Assembly: GCF_013002705.1 (NCBI RefSeq)
Contig: NZ_JABEND010000001.1
Location: 310,001-374,000 of the forward strand
Direction of reading: 5' to 3'
Source: Nakamurella aerolata
Lineage (GTDB): Bacteria > Actinomycetota > Actinomycetes > Mycobacteriales > Nakamurellaceae
Length of the DNA: 64,000 nt
The notes below the pieces were generated by a model. That model made no database searches. It was given only the letters and a program-made list of their open reading frames with translations, and was not told the DNA's origin. Positions 2,418 through 63,426 of this stretch are shown here, piece after piece. Every line of letters starts with the position of its first letter. Positions within the stretch are counted from its first letter, which is position 1. The translations under genes were made by a program, and so were the position numbers.

Positions 2418-2466
2418 CGGCGTCCTTTCGGAATGGATGGACGTGCGGGGAGCAGGGACCGCCCGG

Positions 2467-4695
<2,229 letters not shown>

Positions 4696-4824
4696 GCACG
4701 CTCACTTTCCCGGGGGCATGCGCGCCGGGCGCCGGCTGCGCCCGGGCCGCAATGCCGCCCAGCCAGCGTAGCCAACGCCGGCGACTCCGACGTCCGACGG
4801 CAGCCCGACGTCGGCCCCGGCGAC

Positions 4825-4830
4825 TACCCT
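4825..4830 (+). promoter_or_regulatory. Candidate leaderless -10 box of uvrC
   Basis: TACCCT followed by 7 nt and then the GTG start at 4838. This places the predicted transcription start at or next to the start codon. No Shine-Dalgarno sequence is visible. It is one of a set of such arrangements in the window. Confidence 0.5.
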
Positions 4831-4837
4831 CGCGGCT

Positions 4838-7057
4838 GTGCCGCACCCGTCCACCTACCGACCCGCCCCCGGCACCATTCCGGATTCCCCGGGGGTGTAC
4901 CGCTTCCGCGACCCCGACGGGCGGGTCATCTATGTGGGCAAGGCGAAGAGCCTGCGGCAGCGGCTGAACTCCTATTTCGCCGACCCGGCTTCGCTGCACC
5001 CGCGGACGTACAAGATGGTGACCACCGCGGCCGCCGTGCAGTGGACGGTGGTGTCCACCGAGGTCGAAGCGCTGCAGCTGGAATACAACTGGATCAAGGA
5101 GTTCGACCCGCGGTTCAACGTCCGCTATCGCGACGACAAGAGCTATCCGGAGCTCGCGGTGACGCTGAACGAGGAGTACCCGCGGCTGATGGTCACCCGC
5201 GGCCCGCACCGCAAGGGCGTGCGCTACTTCGGGCCGTACGCGCACGCCTGGGCCATCCGCGAAACCCTCGACCTGCTGCTGCGGGTGTTCCCGGCCCGCA
5301 CCTGCTCCAACGGTGTGTTCAAACGCTCGGCGCAGATCGGCCGGCCCTGTCTGCTGGGCTACATCGGCAAATGCTCTGCACCCTGCGTCGGGCGGGTCAC
5401 CGCCGAGCAACACCGGGAGATCGTCGACGATTTCTGCGATTTCATGGCGGGCAAGGCCGACCCGCTGATCCGCCGGCTGGAGAAGGAGATGACGGCCGCC
5501 GCTGACGATCTCGACTTCGAGAAGGCGGCCAGGCTGCGGGACGATCTCGGTGCGGTGCGGCGCGCGGTGGAGAAGCAGGCGGTGGTGTTCGGCGACGGCA
5601 CCGACGCCGACGTCGTCGGGATCTCCGCCGACGAGCTGCTCGCCGCCGTGCAGGTGTTCCACGTCCGCGGCGGCCGGGTGCGCGGCCAGCGCGGCTGGAT
5701 CGTCGACGTCGACGCCGACAACCCCGACGCCGCCGACGCGGGGGCGGCGGGGGCGGCTGCCGACACCGAAGAGGCGATCACCCAGCGCCGGCTGCGCGCA
5801 CTGACGGCCGACTTTCTGCTGCAGTACTACGGCGCGCGGGCCGATGAGCAGGCCGCGGTCGACCGGGCTGCGGACCCGGCCGTCGTCGACCCTGCGGCGA
5901 TTCCCCGGGACATCCTGGTGCCGGTGCTGCCGGACGACATCGACAACATCACGGCATGGCTGACCGAGCGGCGCGGCGCAAAGGTGAACATCCGGGTGGC
6001 GCAGCGGGGCGACAAGCGGGCGCTGGCAGAGACCGTGCACCGCAACGCGATCGAGGCGCTCACCCAGCATCGACTCAAACGGGCCAGCGACCTCACCGCC
6101 CGGTCGGAGGCGCTCGCCGAGTTGGGCGAACTGCTCGACATGCCGACGGCCCCGCTGCGCATCGAATGCATCGACGTCTCGCACGTGCAGGGCACCAATG
6201 TGGTGGCCTCACTGGTGGTGTTCGAAGACGGCATGCCGAAGAAGAGCGACTACCGGCGGTTCATCATCCGCGACCGCCCCGGAGACGATGTCGCCTCCAT
6301 CGCCGAGGTCGTGCGCCGTCGGTTCAGCCCGCACAACTACGGACCGAACGGGGAAGCATCGGCCGAGCCGAACGGGGAGGGCGCGCCCCGGCCGGAGCTG
6401 ACCAGCGGGGCCGTCACGGCCGACGATCCTGGCGGCAGGCCGGGCATCGATCCGGAGACCGGCAGGCCGCGGCGATTCGCCTATCCGCCACAGCTTTTGG
6501 TGGTGGACGGGGGCGCCCCGCAGGTCAACGCGGCGGCTGAGGTGCTCGCCGAGCTCGGCATCGACGACGTCAAGGTCTGCGGGTTGGCCAAGCGGCTGGA
6601 GGAGGTGTGGGTGCCGGCCAGGGGCGACGAGCCCGCGGAACCACTGATCTTCCCGCGAACCAGCGAGGCGCTGTACCTACTGCAGCGACTGCGGGACGAG
6701 GCCCACCGGTTTGCCATCACCTTCCACCGGGCGCGGCGCTCCAAGGCGATGACCAGCTCGGCCCTGGAATCGGTCCCTGGGCTGGGGGAGACCCGTCGCA
6801 AGGCGCTGCTGCGGCACTTCGGCTCGGTCAAGCGGGTGCGCGCGGCCAGCGCCGCGGAGCTCACCGAGGTGCCGGGCATCGGCGCCGCGACCGCCGATGC
6901 CATCGTGGCAGCGCTCGCCGCGGGCTCGGAGAACGCCAACGGCCCGGAGAACGCAGCCGGTCCCGATACCGCCGCCGGTCCCGATACCGCTGCTGCTACC
7001 GCCGCTGGATCCGATACCGCCGCAGAGTCAAGCACCGTGATCGGCGGCAAGCCTTAG
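4838..7057 (+). CDS. uvrC: UvrABC excinuclease subunit C
   Basis: Nucleotide excision repair nuclease (739 aa) that makes both incisions around a lesion after UvrAB recognition. Visible domains: GIY-YIG nuclease at residues 10-95 ([22 protein letters not shown]), a UVR/UvrB-binding motif near residues 210-245 ([13 protein letters not shown]), an RNase H-like nuclease domain ([28 protein letters not shown]), and a C-terminal double helix-hairpin-helix ([30 protein letters not shown]). The protein is longer than many UvrC proteins, owing to an insertion near residues 505-545 and a low-complexity tail containing repeated GPDTAA units. The GTG start at 4838 is favoured because it fits the leaderless promoter register. 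rapZ follows after about 115 nt. Confidence 0.96.
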
Positions 7058-7171
7058 GCACTGCCGCGGACCACTACGCTGGGCGGGCGGACCCGACTCG
7101 AAGTTCCCTGGGTCGGGGCAACCCAGGCGGGCGGCCCGCCGGAACCGATTCGCGCACGTCCAGGAGCACTC

Positions 7172-8125
7172 ATGACGCAGGCACCGCCGGCCGACACCGA
7201 TCAGCTGCCGCCCGACGGGGAGGTCACTGGCATCGAGGTGGCGGTGGTGTCCGGGCTGTCCGGCGCCGGCCGCTCGACCGCCGCCAAGTGCCTGGAAGAT
7301 CTCGGCTGGTTCGTTGTCGACAATCTGCCTCCCGAGCTGATCGCCACCATGGTCGATCTGGGGGCAAGGGCAAGAGGCGAACTCACCAAGATCGCCGTGG
7401 TGCTTGACGTCCGGTCCCGGGCATTCACCGAAGACCTTGCCGAGGTGATCCGTGATCTGGACAGCAAGGGTTATCCGGTGCGGCTGCTGTACCTGGAGGC
7501 CAGCGACGCGGCGTTGATCCGGCGCTACGAGGCGAACCGGAGGCAGCACCCGCTGCAGGCCGGCGGACGCATTTCCGACGGGCTGGCCGCCGAGCGCAGC
7601 CTGCTCGGCCCGCTGCGCGACGAAGCCGACGTGATCATCGACACCAGCGACATCTCGGTACACGAACTCCGCGATCGCATCGAGGAGGAGTTCACCGCTG
7701 GCCCGCGCAGCTCGACCCTGACGCTGCTGTCGTTCGGCTACAAGTACGGGCTGCCGTTGGACGCAGATCTGGTGGTGGACATGCGTTTTCTGCCGAATCC
7801 GTTCTGGATCCCCGAGCTGCGCGACAAGACCGGCCTCGACCCCGAGGTGCGCGACTACGTGCTCACCCAAGAGGGCGCAGCGGAGTTCCTCGACCAGTAC
7901 ATCGGCCTGCTCGATCTGGTGGGCGCCGGCTACCAGCGGGAAGGTAAGCGCTACCTGACGGTGGCTATCGGCTGTACCGGCGGCAAGCACCGCAGTGTCG
8001 CCATCGCCGAGGAGCTCGGTCGCCGGCTGCGGGACAACCGGCTCAGCGCAGGACGGCCGTCCGGCGGGCACCCTGATGTGCAGCTGGACGTGCAGGTGGC
8101 CCACCGAGACCTGGGGCGCGAGTGA
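7172..8125 (+). CDS. rapZ: RNase adapter protein RapZ, P-loop family
   Basis: Cytosolic P-loop protein of the RapZ/YvcJ family (317 aa). In E. coli RapZ steers RNase E to the small RNA GlmZ to control glucosamine-6-phosphate synthesis; in actinobacteria the role is less clear. Visible features: a Walker A variant GLSGAGRST near residue 30 (Arg in place of the usual Lys), the following CLEDLGWFVVDNLPP motif, SFGYKYGLP, DMRFLPNP, and the C-terminal GCTGGKHRSVAIAE signature. The ATG at 7172 has an AGGAG ribosome site 5 nt upstream. The stop overlaps the GTG of yvcK by 4 nt, implying translational coupling. The order uvrC-rapZ-yvcK-whiA is the conserved actinobacterial arrangement. Confidence 0.93.
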   Translation: MTQAPPADTDQLPPDGEVTGIEVAVVSGLSGAGRSTAAKCLEDLGWFVVDNLPPELIATMVDLGARARGELTKIAVVLDVRSRAFTEDLAEVIRDLDSKGYPVRLLYLEASDAALIRRYEANRRQHPLQAGGRISDGLAAERSLLGPLRDEADVIIDTSDISVHELRDRIEEEFTAGPRSSTLTLLSFGYKYGLPLDADLVVDMRFLPNPFWIPELRDKTGLDPEVRDYVLTQEGAAEFLDQYIGLLDLVGAGYQREGKRYLTVAIGCTGGKHRSVAIAEELGRRLRDNRLSAGRPSGGHPDVQLDVQVAHRDLGRE

Positions 8126-9129
8126 CGTCCCGCTCGGTCGTCACCCTTGGTGGAGGCCACGGCCTTTACGCGATGCTGCGCGCGCTGCGGACGTTGGCCC
8201 GGCGGGCCGAGGTCGACGTGACGGCGGTGGTGACGGTCGCCGACGACGGCGGCTCGTCAGGGCGGTTACGGCGCGACAACCCGGGCATCCTGCCACCGGG
8301 TGACCTGCGGATGGCGCTGGCCGCGCTGGCCGACGACGGCCCGGACGGGACGTTGTGGGCCAACACTTTTCAGCACCGGTTCTCCGGTGAGGGCGCGCTG
8401 GCCGGGCATCCGGTCGGCAACCTGGTGCTCGCCGGGCTCGGCGAGGTGCTGGGTGATCCGATCGCCACCCTCGATGCCGCGGGCAGGATGCTCGGCTGCC
8501 GAGGCCGGGTGCTGCCGATGAGCTGCCAGCCGCTGACGATCGTGGGTGAGGTGGCCGGACTGGATGACCAGCCGGACACCGTGCGGCGCATCCGCGGCCA
8601 GGTCGCGGTGGCCGCCACCCCGGGGCAGGTGCGCTCGGTCTCGTTGGAACCGGCCGATGCAGTGGGCTGTGACGAGGCCGTGCAGGCGATCTCCACGGCC
8701 GACCTGGTGATCTTGGGTCCGGGGTCGTGGTTCACCTCGGTGCTGCCGCATCTGCTGGTCCCCGGCCTGCGCGAAGCCCTGATCGGGACCGCTGCGCACA
8801 GGCTGCTGGTCTTGAACCTGGTGCCGCAACCCGGTGAGACCGAAGGGTTTTCACCCGAGCAACACCTCGACGTGATCTCCGAGCACGCCCCGGATTTCCG
8901 AGCGGATACCGTCCTGGCCGACCCTGCTGCGGTTCCGAACCGCAGCAGGTTGACCTCGGCCGTCCGGCACTGGAACGGTGAGCTATGGACGCGGACGGTC
9001 GCCGCTGAGGGCAAGCCGGAACAGCACGACCCGGACGCCCTGGCCAACGTCCTTGACGAACTGCTGACCGCACTGCCGCCCGGCGGCCGGACCCGGAGCG
9101 GCAACCCCACGTCGGCCACCACCGGGTAG
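8122..9129 (+). CDS. yvcK: YvcK/CofD-like gluconeogenesis factor
   Basis: CofD-like Rossmann protein (335 aa) of the YvcK (GlmR) family, which binds UDP-GlcNAc and influences gluconeogenic growth and cell-wall precursor supply in Bacillus and mycobacteria. Diagnostic motifs are [16 protein letters not shown] at the N-terminus, [12 protein letters not shown] near residue 45, [13 protein letters not shown], and [19 protein letters not shown] near residue 200. The GTG start overlaps the rapZ TGA as GTGA. It is co-directional with whiA, 104 nt downstream. Length is typical. Confidence 0.93.
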
Positions 9130-9188
9130 TCAGCAGCCGACAACGCAAAAGCATTACCAGCACAGCACTTCCAGCAACGCAATACCCC

Positions 9189-9216
9189 ACAAGCAGTACC
9201 CGACAAGCAGCACCCG
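9189..9216. repeat. Tandem 14-bp repeat upstream of whiA
   Basis: Two adjacent 14-bp units (ACAAGCAGTACCCG and ACAAGCAGCACCCG) differing by one base. They sit directly before the AAGGAGAG ribosome site of whiA. Confidence 0.7.
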
Positions 9217-9233
9217 AAGGAGAGCCACTCCCG

Positions 9234-10277
9234 ATGGCCATGACCGCCGACGTCAAGGACGAGCTCAGTCGCATCAACGGCGTCTTCGACCGCAGACTCG
9301 GCAAGCAGCGGCAACTGAACACCGCTGAACGCCGGGCCGAGGTGTCGTCCATGCTGCGGTTCGCCGGCGGTCTGCACATTGTCGGCGGCCGAGTGGTGGT
9401 GGAGGCGGAACTGGACACCGGCGCGGCCGCGCGCCGGCTGCGCAGCGAGATCGCCGAGCTGTACGGGCAGGACGCCGAGTTCCAGGTGCTGTCGCCCTCC
9501 GGCATCCGCAAGAGCACCCGGTACATCGTGCGGGTGGTGGCCGGCGGCGACGCGCTGGCCAGGCAGACCGGACTGCTCGACAACCGCGGCCGGCCGGTCA
9601 GGGGGCTGCCGCCGGCCGTGGTGTCCGGCACCGCGGGCGACGCGGTCGCCGCCTGGCGCGGAGCATTCCTGGTGCACGGATCGCTGACCGAGCCCGGCCG
9701 GTCGGCGTCGCTGGAGGTGACCTGCCCGGGACCGGAGGCCGCGCTGGCACTGGTCGGGCTGACTCGGCGGATCGCCGCCGCCGTCCCGACCGATCCACCC
9801 ACCACCATCCCGGCCAAGGCCAGGGAGGTGCGCGGAGCAGACCGGGTCGTGATCCGCGACGGCGACGCCATCTCATTGCTGCTGCGCGAGATGGGTGCCA
9901 GCTCATGCGTCGTCACCTGGGAGGAGCGCCGCACCCGCCGCGAGCACCGGGCCTCGGCGAACCGGCTCGCCAACTTCGATGACGCCAACTTGCGCCGCTC
10001 GGCCAGGGCCGCGGTGGCCGCCGCCGCCAGGGTGCAGCGAGCGTTGGAGATCCTCGGGCCGGAGGCCCCCGACCACCTGACCGTTGCCGGCCGGCTGCGC
10101 ATCGAGCACGGCCAGGCCTCGCTGGAGGAACTCGGCCAACTCGCCGACCCGCCGCTCACCAAAGACGCTATCGCCGGCCGGATCCGCCGGTTGCTCACCA
10201 TGGCCGACAAGAAGGCCCAGGATCTGGACATCCCGGACACCGAATCGGCCGTCACCGCCGACATGCTCGACGGCTGA
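9234..10277 (+). CDS. whiA: Sporulation/cell-division regulator WhiA
   Basis: DNA-binding protein WhiA (347 aa), which acts with WhiB on developmental and division genes in Streptomyces and is kept in non-sporulating actinobacteria and Firmicutes. The N-terminal half is the degenerate LAGLIDADG homing-endonuclease-like fold ([32 protein letters not shown]). The C-terminal part holds the helix-turn-helix ([33 protein letters not shown]). The start is supported by AAGGAGAG 9 nt upstream; two in-frame ATGs (9234 and 9240) are possible. Gap follows after a 192-nt spacer with its own promoter candidate. Confidence 0.95.
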
Positions 10278-10346
10278 GCAGCGGATTCCCGACGACGGCC
10301 ACACGGCACCAACCGGGGGCGGCGCGGCCGCCGCAAGCGCTCCGTC

Positions 10347-10352
10347 TAGAGT
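10347..10352 (+). promoter_or_regulatory. Candidate -10 box upstream of gap
   Basis: TAGAGT about 118 nt before the gap start, in the whiA-gap spacer. No convincing -35 element is seen. If real, it gives a 5' leader of about 110 nt ending in the AAAGGGG ribosome site. Confidence 0.3.
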
Positions 10353-10391
10353 GGAACTGTCACCCCCAGGGCTGTGGGTGTCGTCACTTAA

Positions 10392-11477
<1,086 letters not shown>

Positions 11478-11488
11478 CCCCGGCACTG

Positions 11489-11548
11489 CTGCCGCGGTCC
11501 TATCTGCCGCGGTCCTTTCTGCCGCGGTGCTATCTGCCACGGCACACG
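11489..11548. repeat. 15-bp tandem repeat between gap and pgk
   Basis: Four consecutive 15-bp units with consensus CTGCCGCGGTCCTAT, the last one degenerate, fill most of the 103-nt gap-pgk spacer. They end 32 nt before the pgk start. Unit starts are 11489, 11504, 11519 and 11534. Confidence 0.8.
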
Positions 11549-11580
11549 CACCCCGAATTCCCTGCACCCCAGGAGCTTTC

Positions 11581-12831
11581 GTGAACACCTTGGACGATCT
11601 GCTCGGCGGTGGCGCCGGCCAGCCCGGCTCGCTGACCGGCACCACCGTGCTGCTGCGGTCCGATCTGAACGTGCCGCTGGACGGCGACACGATCACCGAC
11701 GACGGCCGCATCAAGGCCAGCCTGCCCACTATCAAGGCGCTGACCGACGCCGGTGCCAAGGTGGTCGTCACCGCGCATCTCGGCCGGCCGGACGGCAAAC
11801 CGGACCCGAAGTTTTCGCTGGCTCCGGTGGCCGCCCGGCTGGGCGAGCTGCTCGGCGCCGACGTCGTCCTCGCCTCGGATGTGGTGGGGGACAGCGCGAA
11901 AGCCACCGTCGCCGGCCTACAGGACGGGCAGGTGGCGCTGTTGGAGAACGTGCGGTTCGACCCACGCGAGACCAGCAAGGACGACGCCGAGCGGGGTGCG
12001 CTGGCCGCCGAGTTGGCGGGGCTGGCTGCCGGGGCCGGCGGCCGCGCCGTTTTCGTCTCCGACGGGTTCGGGGTGGTGCACCGCAAGCAGGCGTCGGTGT
12101 ACGACGTGGCAAAGCTGTTGCCGCACTACGCCGGCTACCTGGTGTCGGAAGAGACGGCGGTGCTGCGCAAGCTCACCACCGAGCCGGAACGGCCGTACGT
12201 CGTCGTCCTCGGCGGGTCCAAGGTGTCGGACAAGCTCGGGGTGATCAAGGCACTGCTGGAGCAGGTGGATCAGGTGCTGATCGGCGGCGGGATGGCGTAC
12301 ACCTTCCTGGCCGCCGAGGGCAAGGACGTCGGAAAGTCGTTGCTGCAGCAGGACATGGTCGACACCTGCGGGCAACTGCTGAACGAGTACGGCAGCAAGA
12401 TCGTGCTGCCCAACGATGTGGTGGTCGCCGACAGCTTCTCGCCCGACGCGAAGACCGAGGTGGTGTTCGCCGGCGAGATCCCTTCCGACTGGCAGGGGCT
12501 GGACATCGGCCCCGACACCAGGGCCACCTTCCGGCGCATCCTGGGCGAGGCCAGGACGGTGTTCTGGAACGGCCCGGTCGGCGTCTTCGAGATGGCGCCG
12601 TTCGCCGGCGGCACCAAGGCGATCGCAGAGGCGATCGCAGACTCGTCGGCGTTCTCGGTGGTCGGTGGCGGCGACTCCGCCGCCGCTGTCCGGCAGCTGG
12701 GGGTCGACGAAGCCGGCTTCACGCACATCTCCACCGGTGGCGGAGCGTCGTTGGAATACCTTGAGGGCAAAGAACTTCCGGGACTTGCCGTGCTCGACGA
12801 GCCGCAGCCAGAGAATGGAGCAGGCCAGTGA
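11581..12831 (+). CDS. pgk: Phosphoglycerate kinase
   Basis: Transfers the acyl phosphate of 1,3-bisphosphoglycerate to ADP (416 aa). Motifs: [10 protein letters not shown] near residue 25, TAHLGRPDG, the hinge-region [15 protein letters not shown] near residue 205, and the C-terminal nucleotide site [10 protein letters not shown] with GGGDSAAAV. The frame is open further upstream, but the GTG at 11581 is chosen because AGGAGC lies 5 nt before it and the protein then begins where the family does. The TGA overlaps the tpiA GTG by 4 nt. Confidence 0.96.
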
Positions 12832-51154: not shown

Positions 51155-51623
51155 TCGTACGGAGAGACGGGGAACTGGCTTTCGGACAACAAGTTCGCGA
51201 ACCGGCTGCGGATTGCCCGGTGATGTTCCAGCATTGGACGATGAGCGTCAGCGGAAGGCGCGGTCACCTGCTGGGGGATCGGCGTGCTCGTCCGGGCCCG
51301 CGTTCTCTGGCCGGCGCGCTCGCAGTGGGACTTGCAGCGTCGATGCTGGCGGGCTGTTCGCCTAAAGTGGTCGGGCTCATCGGCATCGCGAAGGATCCCC
51401 AGGGGAACCTTGTCGCCGTCACCGACGGGTGTGGTGAGGTGCTCGACTATGTCCGACTCACCGCGACTCGCGATGGTGGCCCGACGGCGACCGCTGCCAA
51501 CGGACAACTGCAGTACGACCGGTCGGAGCTGGGCCGGTTCGAGCTGCCGGGTGATGGCGCTTACCTGAATCTCCCCAGTCCTGCTCACTGAAATTCCCCA
51601 CCTGCGTGGCTCCCGCACATGCG

Positions 51624-51684
51624 GCGGGGCCCCTTCGATGCTGGCGGTCTCTGACCACCTGCCAGCTGACCGAAGGGGCCCCGC
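51624..51684. promoter_or_regulatory. Long inverted repeat before istA (copy 1)
   Basis: Perfect 14-bp arms GCGGGGCCCCTTCG (51624-51637) and CGAAGGGGCCCCGC (51671-51684) with a 33-nt loop, ending 3 nt before the istA ATG. It could form a hairpin that blocks translation of read-through transcripts. Confidence 0.6.
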
Positions 51685-51687
51685 TTC

Positions 51688-53034
51688 ATGCTCACACAGG
51701 AGGACGACGTGGACATCCATGCACTACGAAGACGGGGCTGGTCGATCTCGGCGATCGCCCGGCATGTGGGCCGGGACCGTAAGACGGTCCGGGCCTACCT
51801 CAACGGCGTCCGGCAGGTCGGTCAGCGTGCCCCGGCCGGCGAGGACGCGTTCGCCCGGTTCGTCGACTACGTCGCCGCCCGGCTGGCTGAGGACCCGCAT
51901 CTGTGGGCCACCGCCCTGTTCGATGAGGTCCGCCGGTTGGGCTACGACCGCTCGTATCCCTCGTTCACCCGGGCGCTGCGCCTGCGTGGGCTGCGGCCGC
52001 CGTGCGAGCGGTGTCGGCCGGCGACCGGGCGCCCGGTCGCGGTCATCGAGCATCCGGCGGGTGAGGAAACCCAGTGGGACTGGGTCGAGCTACCCGACCC
52101 GCCGCCGGGCTGGGACGGCTACGGCCGCAAGGCCTGCCTACTGGTCGGCGCGTTGGCCCACTCCGGGAAGTGGCGCGGCGAACTGTGTGAAGCCATGGAC
52201 CAGGCGCAGCTGGCCGCCGCGCAACACAAGATCGCGACCAAACTCGGTGGGGTGACGCAGGATTGGCGGTTCGACCGGATGGCCACCGTCGTCCACCCCA
52301 GCAGTGCGAAGGTCACCGCCAGCTACGCCGCGATCGCGAAACACTTCGGTGTCCGGGTCACGGTGTGTCCGCCGCGGCGCGGGAACCGTAAAGGCGTGGT
52401 CGAAAAGGCCAACCACACTGCGGCGCAACGCTGGTGGCGCAGCCTGCCCGACGACATTACTGCTGCGGCAGCGCAGGCATCGCTGGACGACTTCTGTGAA
52501 CAGGTCACCGACCAACGCGGCCGCATCGATCCGGACGGAAACCGGTGCACCGTAGCCGACCTCGCCGCCCATGAGCCGCTACGGCCGGTCCCCGCTGCAC
52601 CGCCGGTCGCGGTGATCACCGTGGCCAGGAAGGCCTCCGCGCAGGCGTTGGTGTCCTACCGCGGCAACACCTACTCCGTCCCACCGGCCCAGGCTGGCCA
52701 ACTCGTGACCGTGAGCCATCGGCTCGATGCGGCCACTCTGTCGATCACCACCAACGCTGGTGTCACCGTCGTGGTCCACCACCGGCGGCCCGACGGCGCA
52801 GGCGCAGTGGTCCGTACCGAGCAGCATGTCACCGCGTTGAACACCGCCGCGATGACCGCCACCACCCCGGCGGCGCCGCACCGGTCCAAACAACGGATCC
52901 CACCCGGCCCGGCAGCGCGAGCCGCCGCCGACACCCTCCGCGGCAGGACCCCGACACCAGCGGCCTCAGCCGCGGTGATCGACCTGAACCAATACGCCCA
53001 AGCCGCCGCCCGCCGCCGCACCCTGCCCCAATGA
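51688..53034 (+). CDS. istA: IS21 transposase IstA, copy 1
   Basis: 448-aa DDE transposase. N-terminal helix-turn-helix WSISAIARHVGRDRKTVRAYLNG (in parts) near residue 17; catalytic core with ETQWDWVELP near residue 130 and the Glu in RKGVVEKANHTAAQRWW near residue 245; C-terminal beta domain with SYRGNTYSVPP. ATG 51688 follows the hairpin; an AGGAGG at 51700 precedes a GTG at 51709, which could be a second start. istB follows after 46 nt. Confidence 0.95.
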   Translation: MLTQEDDVDIHALRRRGWSISAIARHVGRDRKTVRAYLNGVRQVGQRAPAGEDAFARFVDYVAARLAEDPHLWATALFDEVRRLGYDRSYPSFTRALRLRGLRPPCERCRPATGRPVAVIEHPAGEETQWDWVELPDPPPGWDGYGRKACLLVGALAHSGKWRGELCEAMDQAQLAAAQHKIATKLGGVTQDWRFDRMATVVHPSSAKVTASYAAIAKHFGVRVTVCPPRRGNRKGVVEKANHTAAQRWWRSLPDDITAAAAQASLDDFCEQVTDQRGRIDPDGNRCTVADLAAHEPLRPVPAAPPVAVITVARKASAQALVSYRGNTYSVPPAQAGQLVTVSHRLDAATLSITTNAGVTVVVHHRRPDGAGAVVRTEQHVTALNTAAMTATTPAAPHRSKQRIPPGPAARAAADTLRGRTPTPAASAAVIDLNQYAQAAARRRTLPQ

Positions 53035-53080
53035 ACAAGCACACCACAACACCCGAACATGTTGGAAGGAAACCACTCTC

Positions 53081-53911
53081 ATGACAACCACCTCCGAGGC
53101 CAGCCGCTACCAGCAGCTCCGCGACCACCTGACCTACCTCCGACTGGCCGACGCCGCCGAAGCCCTCCCGGCCGTCCTGGACGAAGCGAAAGCAGGCCAG
53201 CACAGCATCACTGCGACACTGGAACAGCTGCTGCGGATCGAGGTGCAGGCCACCGAAACCCGCCGACTGGCCGGCCGGCTCCGCTTCGCGAACCTGCCCA
53301 CCCCAGCCACCCTGGAAGACTTCGACTACGACGCCCAACCCGGCATCGACCCCGACCTGATCCGCGACCTCGCCTCCGGCCGCTACCTCGACACCGCCAC
53401 GAACATCCTGCTGATCGGGCCGCCCGGCGTCGGCAAAACCATGCTCGCCGTCGGCCTGGCCCGCAAAGTCGCCGAAGCCGGCCACCGCACCTACTTCACC
53501 AACGCCGCCGACCTCGTCGCCCGCTGCCACCGCGCCGCCATCGAGGGCCGCTGGGCCACCACCATGCGCTTCTACGCCGGCCCCGCCGCCCTGGTCATCG
53601 ACGAACTTGGCTACCTGCCGCTGCCCGCCGAAGCCGCCTCATCACTGTTCCAAGTCGTCAACCAGCGGTACCTGAAGTCCTCGATCATCCTGACCACCAA
53701 CAGACCGGTCACCGAATGGGGCCAAGTCCTCGGCGATAACACCGTCGCCGCAGCACTCTTAGACCGCCTACTCCACCGATCAGTTGTCATCGACATCACC
53801 GGCGACAGCTACCGCCTCCGCGACCACCAAGCCCGCACCGACAACCTCCGACGCGCCACCCAACCCAGCTCCGCTACGATCCCACGGTCACCAGATGGCC
53901 AATTTCGATGA
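53081..53911 (+). CDS. istB: IS21 helper ATPase IstB, copy 1
   Basis: 276-aa AAA+ ATPase that helps IstA choose target DNA. Walker A GPPGVGKT near residue 112, Walker B ALVIDELGYLPL near residue 170, sensor TTNRPVTEW. ATG is preceded by GGAAGGAAA. Ends 32 nt before the element's right terminus. Confidence 0.95.
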   Translation: MTTTSEASRYQQLRDHLTYLRLADAAEALPAVLDEAKAGQHSITATLEQLLRIEVQATETRRLAGRLRFANLPTPATLEDFDYDAQPGIDPDLIRDLASGRYLDTATNILLIGPPGVGKTMLAVGLARKVAEAGHRTYFTNAADLVARCHRAAIEGRWATTMRFYAGPAALVIDELGYLPLPAEAASSLFQVVNQRYLKSSIILTTNRPVTEWGQVLGDNTVAAALLDRLLHRSVVIDITGDSYRLRDHQARTDNLRRATQPSSATIPRSPDGQFR

Positions 53912-54219
53912 GCAACCCTGGGGATTTTCGGTAAGCGTCATCACCGGGCGGTCCACAGGCGACCCGGCTCGGGCCAACAGCCGAATTCACCGCGGGTTTC
54001 ACCTACAACGTGGGTGCCTGGAATGACAGCCAGTCGGTAGGCGCTGGCATCATCAGCTTCCGCGTCGATGAACTCACTCGGCTCCCGGTCGATCGCGTGT
54101 ATCGCGGAAAGTCGGGAATTGGGGGTCCATCGGACCGCACGACGCCGCAGTTGACGGTCAATGATTGGCTCGCTGCCACCTGCGACGACAAGCGCTGACT
54201 CGCGCCGCCGCTCCCGTTC

Positions 54220-55038: not shown

Positions 55039-55394
55039 TGGTCGGTCCTCGAACGCCGTCGAATCGAACGACGAGCGCCTAGCTGTACGAGGCCAGGTCG
55101 GTTCTGATCCACATGCCGGACTGCCGGCATCCCAGGTCCCGCAGGCACCAGCCATGGGGGTGCTGGCCGGGCGCTAGGGGGGATGCGCCCGACCAGGGTG
55201 CCGGCACGGAGCTGTACGCCTCGGTGCCGGCGGTTCGGGAACAACACCCGCGGCGAGATACTGCTTGACCGTCTCGGATCATGCTGACCAACGGCCCACC
55301 CCACATGCCGTGACCTGCTACTGGACAACCTGCGTATCAAGTTCGTGCGTATTGGTGTCCGGAGATGGTGATTCGTATCAGACGCGACCAGGTC

Positions 55395-56690
55395 TCAGAA
55401 GCCGAAAGAGTTGTGGGGCAACGGGTCGATGCTGAAGAGTCGCGAGATCCGGTCGACGGCGTCGAGACTGTTGGCTTTGATTTGGCCGGCGTAGGCCAGG
55501 TCATGAGCCGAGACGCCACCGAAGAAGAGTGAGCTGATGGCCTGGATGCTCAGAACTGCGTCAGGAACGCGGTCGACGGGCACGCATGTTGGCCGCTGGC
55601 CGCGGGTCTTGAGTTCCCATGTGCCGACGTTCTGTGGGCACATCGGGTCGTCGGGAATCCGAAGAGTGATCGATTCCTCGTTGGCGTAGGCGCGTCCCGC
55701 CAGCGCGGTCGGCACGTCGAGGAGCCTGGCCCACAAATTGTCAGACTGCCGCGTGACCCGAACGGCGCGTGGATTGGTGAGCATCCACGTGAGAGGCTCC
55801 TGCCGTGGTCGTCCCGGCGCAACAACGGTACGAGTGAGATCGAAGTCGAGCAGCAACTGCCACAACGCGCGGTAGGCCTGAGAGTCTGTCGCCTCTAGCG
55901 CCTCAATAATTAGCGTTCCTGCGTCGCGCTCGGTGGCCGACCAGGGCAGACGAAAATTGGCGATGCCGTCGGCCACGCCCTCAGCGGAGCGATGGATGAG
56001 GAATCTCAGTGGCCCACTAGTCCCTGCGGCGCTGTCCGAGAGACTGCTCCAATGACTAGCCAGAGGTCTGAGCTCGCCGACGCGGTTGGCGCGAACAGGT
56101 CTGTGGACTTCAGGCCATACTGAGCGCGCTACGGTCGCGTCGACGAGCTCGAGCGAGCCTGTGTCGGCGGGGGCCGGAAGGAATTCTGCTTCGTGGCGGC
56201 CGATCTCAAGTCGAGAACGGTAGGTCGCCACGGAGAACCCGAATCGACCGTAGATACTCCCCTCGCTGGCGCTGAGCATCGCCAGCGGTTCAGATCGTTC
56301 TAACGCGCTGACGAACATCGCCTGCATCATTCGGCGGAGATGTCCGCGGCGTCTGTGCGTCGCAATGACGCCGGTTGCCGTCACACCGGCCATGGGCATT
56401 GTTCGGCCACCCGGGACGGTCACGTCGAAAGAGATTGTCGCGGACGCACCAACGCATTGGCCATCGACGAACGCAGCCATGGGATGAAAGGCTGAATCCT
56501 CGATGTCAGCTGCAGCCCACTCATCCAACTGCGTGTCCGCAGCAGGACTGTTCGGCGGTGGCCACGGCTCGCTGCCACCATGCCAAGCTGCATTCGCCGG
56601 CTCCCAGTTCGGTAGGCCGTTCGCGAAGGGCAAGGCGCGGTAGTAGGCGCGCATCTCGTTTGGTTCCGGTGGCCTCGTTGAGTCGTTCAC
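55395..56690 (-). CDS. Eis-type N-acetyltransferase
   Basis: 431-aa protein with the Eis layout: N-terminal GNAT domain, a degenerate second GNAT domain and a C-terminal sterol-carrier-like domain. Seen: MAGVTATGVIATHRRRGHLRRMMQAMF near residue 95-120 (in parts; acetyl-CoA loop), SEGSIYGRFGFSVATYRSRLEI with the Eis Tyr/Phe motif, and a free C-terminal Phe, whose carboxylate is catalytic in Eis. Family members acetylate amines of aminoglycosides or protein lysines. GTG 56690 is preferred over a TTG at 56720; ATG 56654 is also possible. Confidence 0.8.
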   Translation of the reverse strand: MNDSTRPPEPNEMRAYYRALPFANGLPNWEPANAAWHGGSEPWPPPNSPAADTQLDEWAAADIEDSAFHPMAAFVDGQCVGASATISFDVTVPGGRTMPMAGVTATGVIATHRRRGHLRRMMQAMFVSALERSEPLAMLSASEGSIYGRFGFSVATYRSRLEIGRHEAEFLPAPADTGSLELVDATVARSVWPEVHRPVRANRVGELRPLASHWSSLSDSAAGTSGPLRFLIHRSAEGVADGIANFRLPWSATERDAGTLIIEALEATDSQAYRALWQLLLDFDLTRTVVAPGRPRQEPLTWMLTNPRAVRVTRQSDNLWARLLDVPTALAGRAYANEESITLRIPDDPMCPQNVGTWELKTRGQRPTCVPVDRVPDAVLSIQAISSLFFGGVSAHDLAYAGQIKANSLDAVDRISRLFSIDPLPHNSFGF

Positions 56691-56780
56691 GACAGGTATT
56701 CCACACCAGTTGGATCGCAATCACTACCTAATAACCCAGGCAGGGTCGTGGAGGAGATCAGCGACCATCCGGTGGGTCTG

Positions 56781-59198: not shown

Positions 59199-60683
59199 TC
59201 ATGCGTAGCGGGCCCATGGCTCAGCGGCCTTGCTCGCGTGAAGAAACGCGACTTGGTGGCTGTACCCGAGCGCGTCGGCGACGAGTGATGGCGGGCATTC
59301 CAGGACGAGCTCCCCGATGGCTCTGTTCCGGGCGCCGCGAAGGTTGATTCCGAGGTTTCGGAGTCGGATCATCACGGTGTTGGGGTGTAGGTGCTGCCCG
59401 GCGGCGTATCCGGGGAAGAGCCAGGGGCTGTCCGGACCGGTGGAGGTTCGCAGGTTGGGTCGTGCGGCGATGTGACTGCGAAGGACACCGGCGAACGGCT
59501 CTGGTACGGCAACAGGCTTCTCGCCGAACCGAATGGTCATGCCGATGTCGGTGTCTCTGATGATGTTGGTTTCGAACGTGACGACTCTGACCAGTGGCTG
59601 CGCGTATAGCAGCAGAAGCATGCCGGCCGTACGGTAGGGAAGCGATTCGCTTGTGCCGGTGAGTAATTCGTGGATCCAGGCGAGCCGCTGGTCCTGGCTG
59701 AGTGATGGGCTCGCTTTGGCCGATCGATGTTGGATTGTCACGGCCGTGTTGAGTTGTGCTCGTTTGGTGACGACGAAGAAGGTTCTGATCGCGCTGCGTG
59801 TTGTCGGCCCGCCGGCAAGCCACTCGTCGGCGTCCGGCTGCGTGCAGGTCTCCGCGGTCCGTTCGTACGTTTCGTGGAGCCACACCAGGAACTTGAGTGT
59901 TTCGGTGATCTCCTGCTTGGCCGAGTGCACGGGTCCACGGGTGGAGCTACCTGCCGCCGCCTTTGCGCGGATGCGGCGCAGGTGGTGCCAGGTGGCAAAT
60001 TGCCGCACCGGCTGGCTGACTTCGTCGGGCAGCCCGTCGAGCTTGGCGTCAATCCACTGCTCGAAGCGAGGAAGGTACTGGTCGCGCTGGGGGAGTAGCC
60101 CGTGATGTTGCAGGATCGCGCGCAGGTGCTCGGTCGGCTTGCCGGGCACCGTGTCGAGCCCTTCGTGGGTAGCGGGAATGGTGCCGTCACCGAGCGCGCG
60201 CAGTAGCTGTTGAACTTTCGCGGAGCGTTTCCAGACGATGATCGATTCGGGTCGGTCGGCGGCACACAGTGCGTCGACGAGTCCGACGAGGGCTGGGTCG
60301 GTTGGTTCGCCGCCGAGGATGCGGTGCAGGTCGTCGCGCAGCGCGCACCGAGCGCATAGCCGACCGCGGTGGTGTCCGGCTTCAATGTCGCACCGTTCGC
60401 AGTGGAAGTCGTAAGGGATATCAGCGCAGGTCGAGCAGATCGGGTCGCCGTCGGCGCTGGGCGGTCCGGGCAGGAGTCGCTCTTGCAAGCACTCAGGGCA
60501 GGTTCCGCGGGTGTGGACGGCGTCGAAGTAGCAGGTGAAACACAGCCGGCCTTCGGGCCAGATGGCGGCCAGTCGAGGGATGTTGCGACCGCAGCGCGCG
60601 CACGGGTCGTGACGGTCGCTGGTGGTGCGTGGGCGTCCGCGGATGGTGCGGCGAGGGGAGAGGCCGACAGGTTGCGGATCCAT
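59199..60683 (-). CDS. Zinc-knuckle protein with tyrosine-recombinase-like C-terminus
   Basis: 494-aa protein. Residues 28-118 contain six CxxC pairs (CARC, CFTC, CPEC, CSTC, CERC, CARC), enough for three structural zinc sites. The C-terminal half resembles a tyrosine recombinase: RTAGMLLLLYAQPLVRVV (box I-like Arg), HPNTVMIRLRNLGI, RNRAIGELVLECPPSLVADALGYSH (in parts; LGHS-like motif) and a final WARYA. The catalytic Tyr position after LGYSH is not occupied, so it may be inactive or use the Tyr of WARYA. The stop TGA is formed by the IS21 terminus; the native tail is at 56781-56809. Partner recombinase genes are not seen nearby. Confidence 0.6.
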   Translation of the reverse strand: MDPQPVGLSPRRTIRGRPRTTSDRHDPCARCGRNIPRLAAIWPEGRLCFTCYFDAVHTRGTCPECLQERLLPGPPSADGDPICSTCADIPYDFHCERCDIEAGHHRGRLCARCALRDDLHRILGGEPTDPALVGLVDALCAADRPESIIVWKRSAKVQQLLRALGDGTIPATHEGLDTVPGKPTEHLRAILQHHGLLPQRDQYLPRFEQWIDAKLDGLPDEVSQPVRQFATWHHLRRIRAKAAAGSSTRGPVHSAKQEITETLKFLVWLHETYERTAETCTQPDADEWLAGGPTTRSAIRTFFVVTKRAQLNTAVTIQHRSAKASPSLSQDQRLAWIHELLTGTSESLPYRTAGMLLLLYAQPLVRVVTFETNIIRDTDIGMTIRFGEKPVAVPEPFAGVLRSHIAARPNLRTSTGPDSPWLFPGYAAGQHLHPNTVMIRLRNLGINLRGARNRAIGELVLECPPSLVADALGYSHQVAFLHASKAAEPWARYA

Positions 60684-60754
60684 CGCTACGCCAGTCCTAT
60701 TCGTCGAGGATGTTGGCCCTGCGTGGCCGGACGCTGCGGTCCAATTGCACGACG

Positions 60755-61006
60755 TTAGGAGCCGCCGCGGTGCCGGTCTTTACACGAAAGGTCTGCCAGC
60801 AGCAGCAGCTGGTCGTCGTCGGCCATTTGGGCACGTGTCGCGCACACGATCTCAGTGCCGCCGGAGATCAGGGTTACCCATGCGGTGTCCGGGCGGTGCA
60901 CGAGCGCCCGGGCCACAGCCCGCGCAGATCCCTGAGAGGCACCGTCGTGCCGTGTGAGGTGTCGGAAAGCTGCATGATTGCTGTCTATCACGTCGCTTTC
61001 AGCCAC
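60755..61006 (-). pseudogene. Possible AsnC/Lrp-type regulator fragment
   Basis: 83-codon frame whose middle (ARALVHRPDTAWVTLISGGTEIVCATRAQ, in parts) resembles the ligand-binding RAM region of actinobacterial AsnC proteins. No helix-turn-helix precedes it and the C-terminus is cut. 60684-60754 contains no gene I can assign. Weak call. Confidence 0.25.
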
Positions 61007-61039: not shown

Positions 61040-61228
61040 CTAGATGTACTGATCGGGGACGTTGATCAATCGTGAGAAGGGCGGCTGGTTGCCGCAGGCT
61101 GTGTGGGGCCGGTGATGGTTGTAGTAGTGCAGCCACCCGTCGAGTTCCCCTCGCCGCTCGGTCTCGCTCGTGTAGCAGCGGGCGTAGGCCCAGCCGTCGG
61201 CCAGCGTGCGATGGAATCTCTCGATCTT
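61040..61228 (-). mobile_element. IS481-family transposase, 3' remnant
   Basis: About 63 C-terminal residues of an integrase-core transposase: KIERFHRTLADGWAYARCYT, then WLHYYNHHRPHTACGNQPPFSRL, the IS481/IS3-type end, with the catalytic Glu in IERFHRT. Sequence upstream of 61228 is unrelated, so the element is truncated. 61229-61545 shows only an 8-bp inverted repeat (TCGAGCCG at 61247, CGGCTCGA at 61264) and GTCGAT-rich sequence. Confidence 0.7.
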
Positions 61229-61545
61229 GTCGGGCACGAACGTAGTTCGAGCCGAGCGAGTCACGGCTCGAGCTTGTGAGAGGCTCACCTGCAGGGAGGT
61301 AAGAGTGACGCTCCACGCAACGGACGGCGTGCATCTCGTCGCGCTTGGCCGACCAGGAAAGACGTCGATTGGTCGATTGGGGTCGTTGAACGGTCGATCG
61401 ACGTCGTCGACCGGCTTCGCTCACCAGCTGCACCGACGGTGAGCACAGACGAGAATTCGAAATGACCAAAGAGCGGCCCGATGGAAAGTCCCGCCGCCCA
61501 GCTCCCGACCGCCCGCGCTAGTGCCGGCCACCCAAGCCCGTCCGT

Positions 61546-61644: not shown

Positions 61645-63426
61645 TCAGTTCTGGATGAGTCCGAACTCTTCCAGCAGCTCTCCGATCTGGTTGTCTTCGA
61701 GCTTGTTGAGCAGGAGCTTGCGGGCCAGCGGCCCGCCGGGGATCTTGATCTCCTTGCCGTCGCGCAGGCGGCTGGTGGCCGCCAGCAGCTTGCGGATGTC
61801 GTAGGTGGAGTTGTAGACCTCGGGGACGCCTCGTTCGATGTTCAGGAGGGTGTAGACGGCTTCCATAGGGGTTCGGACCGAGTACTCGGTGGTGAAGATG
61901 CAGTCGCGCTCGGCGGATTCGGAGAACTGGCCGATGAATGCGAAGTTCACCGAGCCTGCCGGGACGACGTCGGGGCGGTCGCCGGCCTGTCGGGGCATGA
62001 AGAATCCGGTGACGTAGGGCATCATCACCGGGACGGTCTTCGCACCGTTCGCGGCGAGCTCGTCGATCTGGTCGACTGGCACGCCGAGGTGGTAGAGCCA
62101 TTCGCGGGCGATCTCCTCGCCGGTGGACTCCTGGATCGTCTTGCCGGTGTAGTCGCCGGGGACGTCGGAGAACAGGGCGTAGACCCAGATGACGATCTCG
62201 TCGGGCTTCTGCTGCTTGAAGTGCGGCTGCCGGTTGACCGTCCAGGACAGCAGCCAGGTGGAGTCCGTGGCGGTGACGATCCCGCCGGTGACGACCTTGC
62301 CGCTGAACGGGTCGCGCTTGGCGATCTTCTCGATATACGCGGGTATGCGCTCGTCGAGGGTGGTGACGGTGGCGGACTCCCACTTGGTCTCGGGGATGTG
62401 GTCGGCGAACACGCCGGGGCGGCCGAACGCGGAGTCCTTTTCCGCGATGCGCCGCCAGAGGTCCCATGCGGGTGCGGGGCCTTCGTTGAGCTTCGCGGGG
62501 GTGTGCTGGTCGCCCTCGTCGGAGTTCTCCGTCAGCGACCCGATCGTGACGAACAGCAGATCGTTCTCCGTCAGGTCGACGCCGTCGCCGGGTGCTCCGC
62601 CCTCCCGGGAATCCCAGTGGATGCGGGTGGCTTGCTTCCGGCCGCCGGCCTTATCGATGTCGAAGTCGACGTCGGTGACGGTGGTGGAGAAGTGGAACAC
62701 GACGCCCTGGTCCAGCAGCCACGTGTACAGGGGCAGCACGAGCGATTCGTACTGGTTGTACTTGGTGAACTTCAGCGCGGAGAAGTCGGGGAGCCCGCCG
62801 ATGTGGTGGATGAAGCGGTGCAGGTAGAGCTTCATCTCCAGTGCCGAGTGCCACTCCTCGAAGGCGAACATGGTACGCCAGTACATCCAGAAGTTGCTCT
62901 TCAGAAACTCCTGCGAGAACACCTCGTTGATGCGCTTGTTCTCCATCTCCTCGCGGGTGGCGAGGAAGACCTTCACGACCTCCTTCTGCGCCTTCTCCGA
63001 CAGCGTGAACAGCCCGTCGGTGTGTGCGTCCTCGCCGCGGTTCACGGTCGCGCGCTGCAGGGAGTAGTTCGGGTCGTCGCGGTTGAGCCAGTAGAACTCG
63101 TCGAGCACGCTCGCGCCCTCGATCTCCAGCGACGGGATCGAGCGGAACAAGTCCCACAAGGTCTCGAAGTGGTCCTCCATCTCCCGGCCGCCGCGGATCA
63201 CGAAGCCCTTCTTCGGCTCCTTGATGCCGTCCAGCGCACCCCCCGGGAGTTTCAGCTCCTCGAGGATGGTGATCTTGTTGCCGGGCATCTGCCCGTCGCG
63301 GATGAGGAAGGCGGCGCCGGCGAGCGAGGCGAGCCCCGCCCCCACGAACCACGCCGACTTGTCATCGACGCCTTCCGGCTTGCGAGGGCGCGCGAACGCC
63401 TCGTAGTTGCCTGCGGTGTAACGCAT
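61645..63426 (-). CDS. ohyA: Oleate hydratase
   Basis: 593-aa FAD-dependent fatty acid hydratase (myosin-cross-reactive antigen family), adding water to the cis-9 double bond of oleate to give 10-hydroxystearate. Seen: the FAD fingerprint WFVGAGLASLAGAAFLIRDG near residue 27, EELKLPGGALDG, FVIRGGREMEDHFETLWDL near residue 75, and FAFEEWHSALEMKLYLHRFIHHIGGL near residue 190, both typical of the family (quoted in parts). Length is normal. The ATG lies 36 nt after the dehydrogenase stop, so the two genes form an operon. Confidence 0.93.
   Translation of the reverse strand: MRYTAGNYEAFARPRKPEGVDDKSAWFVGAGLASLAGAAFLIRDGQMPGNKITILEELKLPGGALDGIKEPKKGFVIRGGREMEDHFETLWDLFRSIPSLEIEGASVLDEFYWLNRDDPNYSLQRATVNRGEDAHTDGLFTLSEKAQKEVVKVFLATREEMENKRINEVFSQEFLKSNFWMYWRTMFAFEEWHSALEMKLYLHRFIHHIGGLPDFSALKFTKYNQYESLVLPLYTWLLDQGVVFHFSTTVTDVDFDIDKAGGRKQATRIHWDSREGGAPGDGVDLTENDLLFVTIGSLTENSDEGDQHTPAKLNEGPAPAWDLWRRIAEKDSAFGRPGVFADHIPETKWESATVTTLDERIPAYIEKIAKRDPFSGKVVTGGIVTATDSTWLLSWTVNRQPHFKQQKPDEIVIWVYALFSDVPGDYTGKTIQESTGEEIAREWLYHLGVPVDQIDELAANGAKTVPVMMPYVTGFFMPRQAGDRPDVVPAGSVNFAFIGQFSESAERDCIFTTEYSVRTPMEAVYTLLNIERGVPEVYNSTYDIRKLLAATSRLRDGKEIKIPGGPLARKLLLNKLEDNQIGELLEEFGLIQN

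Follow-up and report, generated by a model that had tools for sequence, protein, structure and literature searches.

A cysteine-rich recombinase-like protein lacking the catalytic tyrosine is probably the third gene of actinomycete elements that dock beside dif

The window analysed here, a stretch of 64,000 nucleotides from Nakamurella aerolata, encodes a protein of 494 residues in which paired cysteines precede a domain resembling tyrosine recombinases but lacking their catalytic tyrosine, raising the question of what such a protein does and to what kind of system it belongs. In our reading, it is probably the third gene (gene 3) of a decayed element whose relatives, equipped with a live integrase (Int) and this dead partner, dock beside dif, with gene 3 acting as a non-cleaving subunit. 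The features of this locus, in window coordinates, are as follows.

59199-60683, minus strand: gene 3 (P0001), 494 aa, zinc-rich and tyrosine-recombinase-like, without the catalytic tyrosine
60697-60780, minus strand: remnant of gene 2, encoding a helix-turn-helix (HTH) protein; the final 27 codons with the stop codon survive and match residues 84-110 of the L018 HTH protein at 89% identity
56810-59201, plus strand: insertion sequence of 2392 bp with istA/istB-like ORFs, presumably of the IS21 family, lying within the 3' end of gene 3
55395-56720, minus strand: cargo gene for an Eis-like GNAT acetyltransferase with an SCP2-like domain (PF13527, PF17668, PF13530)
55319-55340, minus strand: right end of the element, TTGATACGCAGGTTGTCCAGTA, with 2 mismatches to the family consensus
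61040-61288, minus strand: C-terminal transposase fragment, which we take from its motif to be IS3/IS481-like, located where the left side of the element is broken off
65092-65111 on the window scale, minus strand: the only exact dif match of the genome, 1.1 kb past the window end

The initial annotation described six CxxC pairs followed by a recombinase-like domain without the expected tyrosine, and both observations hold well beyond this one protein, which has a single match in its own 4.35-Mb genome (E <= 0.001). The cysteine pairs of P0001 (C28/31, C48/51, C62/65, C83/86, C95/98, and C110/113) all lie within residues 1-113. All 12 cysteines are invariant across the 16 rows of a first gene-3 alignment, and in a more diverse alignment of 16 rows, with identities down to about 26%, 15 rows keep them all (L071 has a tyrosine for C83). 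The third pair reads CxC in L005b (both alignments) and in L078 (diverse alignment), and long forms of gene 3 with extra or repeated N-terminal cysteine modules (806-828 aa) occur in four of ten distant plasmid regions (L069, L070, L076, and L077). In the C-terminal half, the box-II arginine (R452) is found in 16/16 rows of each alignment, and a tyrosine at the nucleophile column in none of them (0/16 in each); P0001 carries A483 there, and H482 and A483 are invariant in the first alignment. Neither the box-I arginine nor the box-II histidine is conserved, and the catalytic R-K-H-R-H/W-Y set of tyrosine recombinases is incomplete in gene 3.

The stop codon of P0001 is supplied by the inserted IS21-family copy. 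Loss of the tyrosine as an artefact of this truncation was considered and rejected, because the 15 other rows of the first alignment extend 5-11 residues beyond the end of P0001 and these relatives with full C-termini have no tyrosine either. Gene 3 might still cleave DNA through a displaced residue, such as Y493 near the C-terminus, which is present in 16/16 rows of the first alignment and in 15/16 diverse rows. However, L075 has a phenylalanine at this position, Y493 stands 10 residues beyond the usual place, and the box-I arginine and box-II histidine are not conserved, leaving this explanation only a very slim chance.

How far gene 3 is a recombinase in fold was approached with domain scans and structure prediction. 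P0001 has no match in Pfam and NCBIfam and one chance-like match in PHROGs. Among the 13 gene-3 proteins scanned with Pfam, three reach PF00589, all under the curated cut-off (L078, E 7.8e-6; L005b, E 0.0047; L073, E 0.0071), and the remaining 10 show no PF00589 match. AlphaFold2 on the shallow alignment of 16 rows gives gene 3 a pLDDT of 68.9 and a pTM of 0.36 (47.8 for Int, likewise from a shallow alignment), with good confidence for residues of about 110-310 and low confidence for the catalytic half. A Foldseek search of this model against the PDB returned nothing at E <= 0.001, a PDB sequence search with the gene-3 alignment gave one chance-like match, and a profile comparison between gene 3 and Int gave no match (Neff about 2 for both profiles). 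In VIA-align, the core-binding domain (residues 216-324) is most similar to 5vfz (Z 8.7, 91 residues, 3.2 A), followed by 5hxy (Z 7.6, 81 residues, 2.5 A) and lambda Int 1z1g (Z 6.9, 88 residues, 3.0 A), a comparison that bears mainly on residues 199-324 and for which the tool warns that such Z values may reflect a common helical arrangement. Integrases and Xer proteins rank at the top, with unrelated helical proteins after them (Z 5-6.6). The structural check proposed in the initial annotation thus gives a divided answer, as the core-binding domain best matches tyrosine recombinases whereas the catalytic half is predicted at low confidence. The recombinase reading of gene 3 draws on this domain, the weak PF00589 matches in 3/13 proteins, and the aligned box-II arginine, which leaves a catalytic fold of the C-terminal half putative.

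Homologues of gene 3 were found in 244 plasmid records (183 with at least 80% of the query) and at 27 genome loci; among the matches listed, they come from actinomycetes throughout and are often labelled recombinase XerD. Their operon has a constant order, with a live tyrosine recombinase (Int, gene 1) followed by a small Cro/C1-type HTH protein (gene 2) and gene 3. This trio is found in order (tblastn) at 28 of the 36 loci L002-L037, some with broken pieces, in a set that was collected via gene 3 and contains near-duplicates (L010-L015, L030/L035, L036/L037). The other eight loci (L002, L017, L020, L023, and L025-L028) are without the full trio owing to contig ends or decay. In the annotated plasmid regions, the three genes are adjacent in 6/7 cases, with an IS256 transposase gene intervening in the seventh, and no further gene beyond the trio is common to the elements in these regions. 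Int carries both the catalytic residues of a tyrosine recombinase (R194, K227, H300, R303, H326, and Y335, invariant in 13/13 rows) and PF00589 (E 5.6e-21), and gene 2 matches HTH_26 in Pfam (E 1.1e-17). The association also holds in the reverse direction: a search from Int finds gene 3 within 0.5 kb in 27 of the first 30 plasmid rows, the exceptions being one row each with a distance of 1.9 kb (IS256 intervening) and of 4.5 kb, and a row with no gene 3 among the 40 records listed. The conserved active recombinase partner that the initial annotation had suggested looking for is therefore present. Its proposal that the protein is an accessory of an integration system is supported by this partner, with binding to DNA and help in integration as presumed functions.

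The cysteine-rich zinc-type domains, the HTH neighbour, and the label 'Fis family transcriptional regulator' on two records among the matches listed (H79 and H80) would also suit a regulator of the operon or plasmid that acts outside the recombination complex. Against such a role stand the core-binding domain match and the weak Phage_integrase matches in 3/13 proteins, as well as the stability of the arrangement: gene 3 immediately follows the HTH gene even in homologues of only about 26% identity, and distant plasmid regions retain both genes in 10/10 cases, with Int ahead in 8/10 (of the two others, L069 starts at the record end and L071 has IS genes there). We therefore regard a purely regulatory function as rather unlikely.

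The gene-3 copies of L010-L015 and L024 are about 73-74% identical to P0001 and apparently near-identical to each other, although they span the genera Tessaracoccus, Agrococcus, Leucobacter, Kocuria, and Gulosibacter. Where the flank is present, their left end is cut by an element that we assume from its motif to be IS6-like, and this looks like recent spread via an IS. Among viruses, P0001 gave no pattern match to viral contigs, the gene-3 alignment gave 39 pattern matches of which none was confirmed, and gene 3 was not found in the phage collection.

The trio itself has been encountered before. The XER modules of Antarctic Arthrobacter plasmids, described as a putative novel type of integrative element, share the recombinase, an XRE-family regulator, a second recombinase-like gene, and variable cargo (PMC6305408). 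This operon is found at the 28 of 36 loci mentioned above, and the window keeps only gene 3 and the gene 2 remnant of it. In contrast to our elements, the genes were named XerD, XRE, and XerC and lie between umuC and umuD, and the passages of that report dealing with the modules do not mention tyrosine loss, cysteine domains, ends, a circle, or dif targeting (PMC6305408). The archetype plasmid pA2H2 (PMC6305408) corresponds to L070; its gene 3, a long form of 828 aa, is 25.8% identical to that of L005b, and no dif was found there.

Where do the trio elements insert? Their left end, CTGCGTATTGCATCAGATGAATCA, occurs at a constant distance after an Xer-site core, CGATAA-N6-TTATGT; the dif of E. 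coli is printed as GGTGCGCATAATGTATATTATGTTAAAT (PMC2731167). In 871,672 bases, both strands counted (L002-L039 and L042-L044, with L001 and L040 left out as duplicates), there are 32 left ends with at most 3 mismatches, three of which are untestable as they lie too close to the record start. Of the testable ends, 24/29 have a dif core (at most 1 mismatch) before them at exactly one spacing, a count that includes L039, L042, and L043 without an observed trio and in which L036/L037 represent one element and L035/L039 one plasmid site. Before the other five stands a sequence resembling the right end of another copy, with 0-5 mismatches in 15 positions, and the weakest of these matches is L035, the certain tandem pair of plasmid pA. 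L010-L015 and L024 do not enter the dif test, since an IS cuts the left end in L010, L013, and L024 and the contigs of the others stop within the element or shortly upstream of it. All 27 dif cores of the scanned loci lie at left ends, except for a single internal sequence shared by L038 and L039, and none lies at an element right end; in L019, the dif core stands beside a variant left end.

A genome-wide view agrees with these counts. The 16 searchable genomes carrying gene 3 contain 17 exact dif matches, one or two each, and 14 of these genomes have a left end at the fixed place after a dif match (13 left ends with at most 1 mismatch, and the L019 variant). In 12 of the 14, this is the fetched locus; in the genome of L017, the contig with the left end also bears the gene 3 remnant, 8.8 kb further on, and in that of L002 the left end lies on a contig other than that of the locus. 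The two exceptions are L025, with a dif but no left end, and L016, where the element sits at a one-mismatch dif and the exact match is empty. In the complete chromosome of Tsukamurella PLM1 (4,391,067 bp), dif is located at 2,252,347, about half way round. The left-end pattern without mismatch was found in only 1/394 genomes of the class, at three places, so the exact left end is rare.

Two plasmids of Paenarthrobacter YJN-5 carry identical elements that agree in the left 6 nt but differ in the right 6 nt and in the dif centre beside them. A dif-like sequence that is part of the element was considered and rejected on this ground: as the dif centres differ between identical copies, dif belongs to the target.

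Several further loci show left ends in other settings. In L081 of Nocardioides speluncae (2215-12001, with L017), an exact left end stands at dif and precedes the gene 3 remnant of that contig by 8.8 kb; an additional left end comes after a right end, so that the elements form an array at one dif. Three exact left ends occur in one genome (L042, L043, and L044), where one contig begins 5 nt before the left end. In Paenarthrobacter AT5 (L038, 1-3061; L039, 2979-6059), the same left end and the same dif-like site accompany a different cargo, comprising CopG, a Doc-like toxin, and an integrase. In strain AT, the left end of that CopG/Doc cargo lies at the record end of a 50.5-kb circular record (pC), suggesting a second, larger excised circle.

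The right end of the elements reads ATACGCNCGAACTTGATACGCAGGCTGTCCASTA and is diverged in the Paenarthrobacter 4.7-kb elements; its terminal part resembles the outer half of the XerD arm (CTGTCCAST vs. ATGTCAAST). Natural empty sites, reached via the right flank of pADNL1, are present in three sister plasmids (L063, L064, and L066) and read TTATGTCAAC|TAAAGT|TGC, where bars set off the 6 nt concerned. In the occupied L029, the left joint is TTATGTCCAC|TACTAG|TCTGCG and the right joint CTGTCCAC|TAAAGT|TGC. Insertion is thus precise and without target duplication, and the comparison places the 6 nt of the target to the right of the element, so that we take the left 6 nt to be the element's own. 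The YJN-5 copies, with shared left and differing right 6 nt, agree with this pattern. Two further sister plasmids, L062 and L065, share the right flank but show no dif-like site. Searches for empty sites from the YJN-5 left flanks returned the strain itself and one partial match only, and the search from the pA left flank found none, yielding L067 and L068 with one- or two-mismatch dif-like sites and a different right side.

In P. ureafaciens AT, plasmid pA contains two identical copies in tandem, and record pD is a circle of 4712 bp consisting of the same unit. The pD joint has 2 nt fewer than the tandem joint and is located at the record ends, for which reason the circle may be an assembly product.

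Not all members of the family lie on the same side of dif. A diverged trio is found on the XerC side, oriented away from dif, in L005, L007 (clipped by the contig end), and L078, and the dif sites of L005 and L007 have one kind of element on each side. L005b and L007b came to light through their position next to a dif already located, so that L078, retrieved as a homologue, is the only independent test of the XerC side. The XerD-side elements make up one clade of the Int tree (support 97/99), whose 18 rows include two untestable for dif, and the XerC-side elements another, of three rows (support 100/100), with seven rows without dif outside both. In the relatives L033, L070, and L073-L076, no dif core was found within 900 bp before int with 3 mismatches allowed, and L077 has only a 3-mismatch core in that interval. 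This position in the tree indicates that dif targeting is a trait of particular clades and not of the family. The XerC-side element of L078 (423-3460) adjoins a Pycsar-like effector and cyclase pair, and such elements may carry or adjoin phage defence genes.

Integration at dif is also a property of the IMEX (CTXphi, TLCphi, and GGI), which rely on host XerCD and a dif-like attP (PMC5357621). By analogy, the trio elements could be passengers that host XerC and XerD integrate at dif, leaving the trio an accessory or excision-only role, and the exact dif spacing at 24 left ends and the resemblance of the right end to the outer XerD arm would fit this. However, the insertion point lies outside the dif centre, away from the XerCD crossover, none of the 27 dif cores lies at a right end and there is no second dif, the elements' own recombinase has all catalytic residues, and the side of dif differs by Int clade. 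Together these points make integration by the host decidedly improbable, and we favour insertion by the elements' own Int outside the XerD or XerC arm.

With the ends and the target defined, the window copy can be interpreted as a relic that keeps the right end, the cargo, gene 3, and the HTH remnant, judging from its sequence. The Int gene and the rest of the HTH gene are missing. The core of this right end matches the genome exactly at a single place, here at 55319-55340. The IS21-family insertion is flanked by a 5-bp duplication (TGCGT), with ORF bases 59199-59201 belonging to the IS, and it is identical over its 2392 bp to a second copy at 51552-53943. About 4.3 kb separate the HTH remnant from the single exact dif match of the 4.35-Mb genome, and between them are the transposase fragment and genes that we take to be oleate-hydratase-like (61645-63426), hydroxyacyl-CoA-dehydrogenase-like, and TetR-like. 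No left end was found near the host dif, which would suit a chance neighbourhood in which an isolated chromosomal gene is unrelated to dif. Yet the right end, the HTH remnant, the cargo between them, and the sole exact dif match only about 4.3 kb off make such a coincidence hardly credible. Original docking of the relic at the host dif is what we infer, given that dif has no left end and that other genes occupy the roughly 4.3 kb in between.

By gene content, the trio element fits none of the SE, GInt, RIT, and Tn554 types, and the tyrosine-recombinase transposons have been counted as five groups (PMC10214605). The closest parallels include SE and GInt, in which a recombinase-fold protein without the tyrosine (Tfp and GinC) is conserved beside live recombinases and insertion is site-specific, the SE passing a 6-bp spacer on at one end (PMC10214605, PMC5385486). 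In contrast, both contain a pair of live recombinases together with a fourth gene, Srap/GinD (PMC10214605, PMC5385486), whereas the trio element has one live recombinase and an HTH protein, cysteine domains, actinomycete hosts, and a dif-adjacent target. Neither the SE order intA-tfp-intB-srap, with one live recombinase present here, nor ginABCD, with a core of three genes only, is found. Tn554 and Tn554-like elements resemble the trio in pairing a short with a long recombinase-type gene, to which some add a small third one, in their occurrence on actinobacterial plasmids, and in the site specificity of Tn554; a potential catalytic motif is reported for the long partner of the actinobacterial forms (611-828 aa) (PMC3414803). 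Judged by gene content, the trio differs from the Tn554 set of catalytic TnpA and TnpB with TnpC, as gene 3 is without the tyrosine and gene 2 encodes a Cro/C1 HTH protein. It likewise differs from the three adjacent catalytic recombinases of RIT, gene 1 being the only catalytic one. The IS1202-family 'dif site hunters' (ISAjo2 type) land 5 bp outside the XerC arm of chromosomal dif and plasmid pdif in one orientation, but they are 1.5-kb ISs of Acinetobacter with a DDE transposase and 5-bp target duplications (PMC10132070). The trio elements instead combine a tyrosine-recombinase trio and cargo with a 6-nt spacer and, in the main clade, the XerD side, and their empty sites reveal no duplication.

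Thus, the trio as XER modules (PMC6305408) and landing at the side of dif by IS1202-type ISs with a different enzyme (PMC10132070) are already described in these sources. New are the insertion of one clade at a constant position beyond the XerD arm of dif and a second clade on the XerC side. In the open-licence papers searched, we found no report of tyrosine-recombinase elements docking outside the dif arms on either side, and none of gene 3 as a dead recombinase.

At the level of sequence, the conservation of the trio, the exact landing point, the ends, the behaviour of the 6 nt, and the tandem copies are established, and they can be joined into a possible mechanism. A circular form would recombine through Int with the half-site adjacent to dif, and dif would stay essentially intact. 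Gene 3 would be a non-cleaving subunit of the Int-DNA complex, a partner role towards which we lean with some reserve; it would hold or choose one half-site via its core-binding and zinc domains, perhaps also recognising dif-bound Xer proteins. With fewer cleaving subunits, one strand pair would be exchanged and replication would finish the process, yielding a copy-out circle as proposed for SEs. A copy-out route has been argued for the SE, in which a recombinase-fold protein without the tyrosine is present (PMC10214605). For the trio elements, one-strand exchange and copy-out are plausible but on balance somewhat doubtful, although they would explain the tandem copies and the copies on multiple plasmids. 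Tentatively, in a reading that we hold to be somewhat less likely than not, the trio elements could represent a sixth kind of prokaryotic tyrosine-recombinase transposon, working through a mixed complex of one cleaving and one obligatory non-cleaving recombinase that exchanges one strand pair and copies the element out, with two clades specialised on opposite dif arms that leave dif intact.

Most circular bacterial chromosomes have a dif site, as do many plasmids. With such sites this common and a recombinase of their own, the elements would find a place to land in nearly every host, and dif-docking elements could move genes between chromosomes and plasmids. A dead recombinase beside a single live one also offers a minimal three-gene system for testing the role of dead subunits. 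If the mixed-complex reading is true, these elements would use the chromosome-separation site as a safe and nearly always present landing pad that is left undestroyed.
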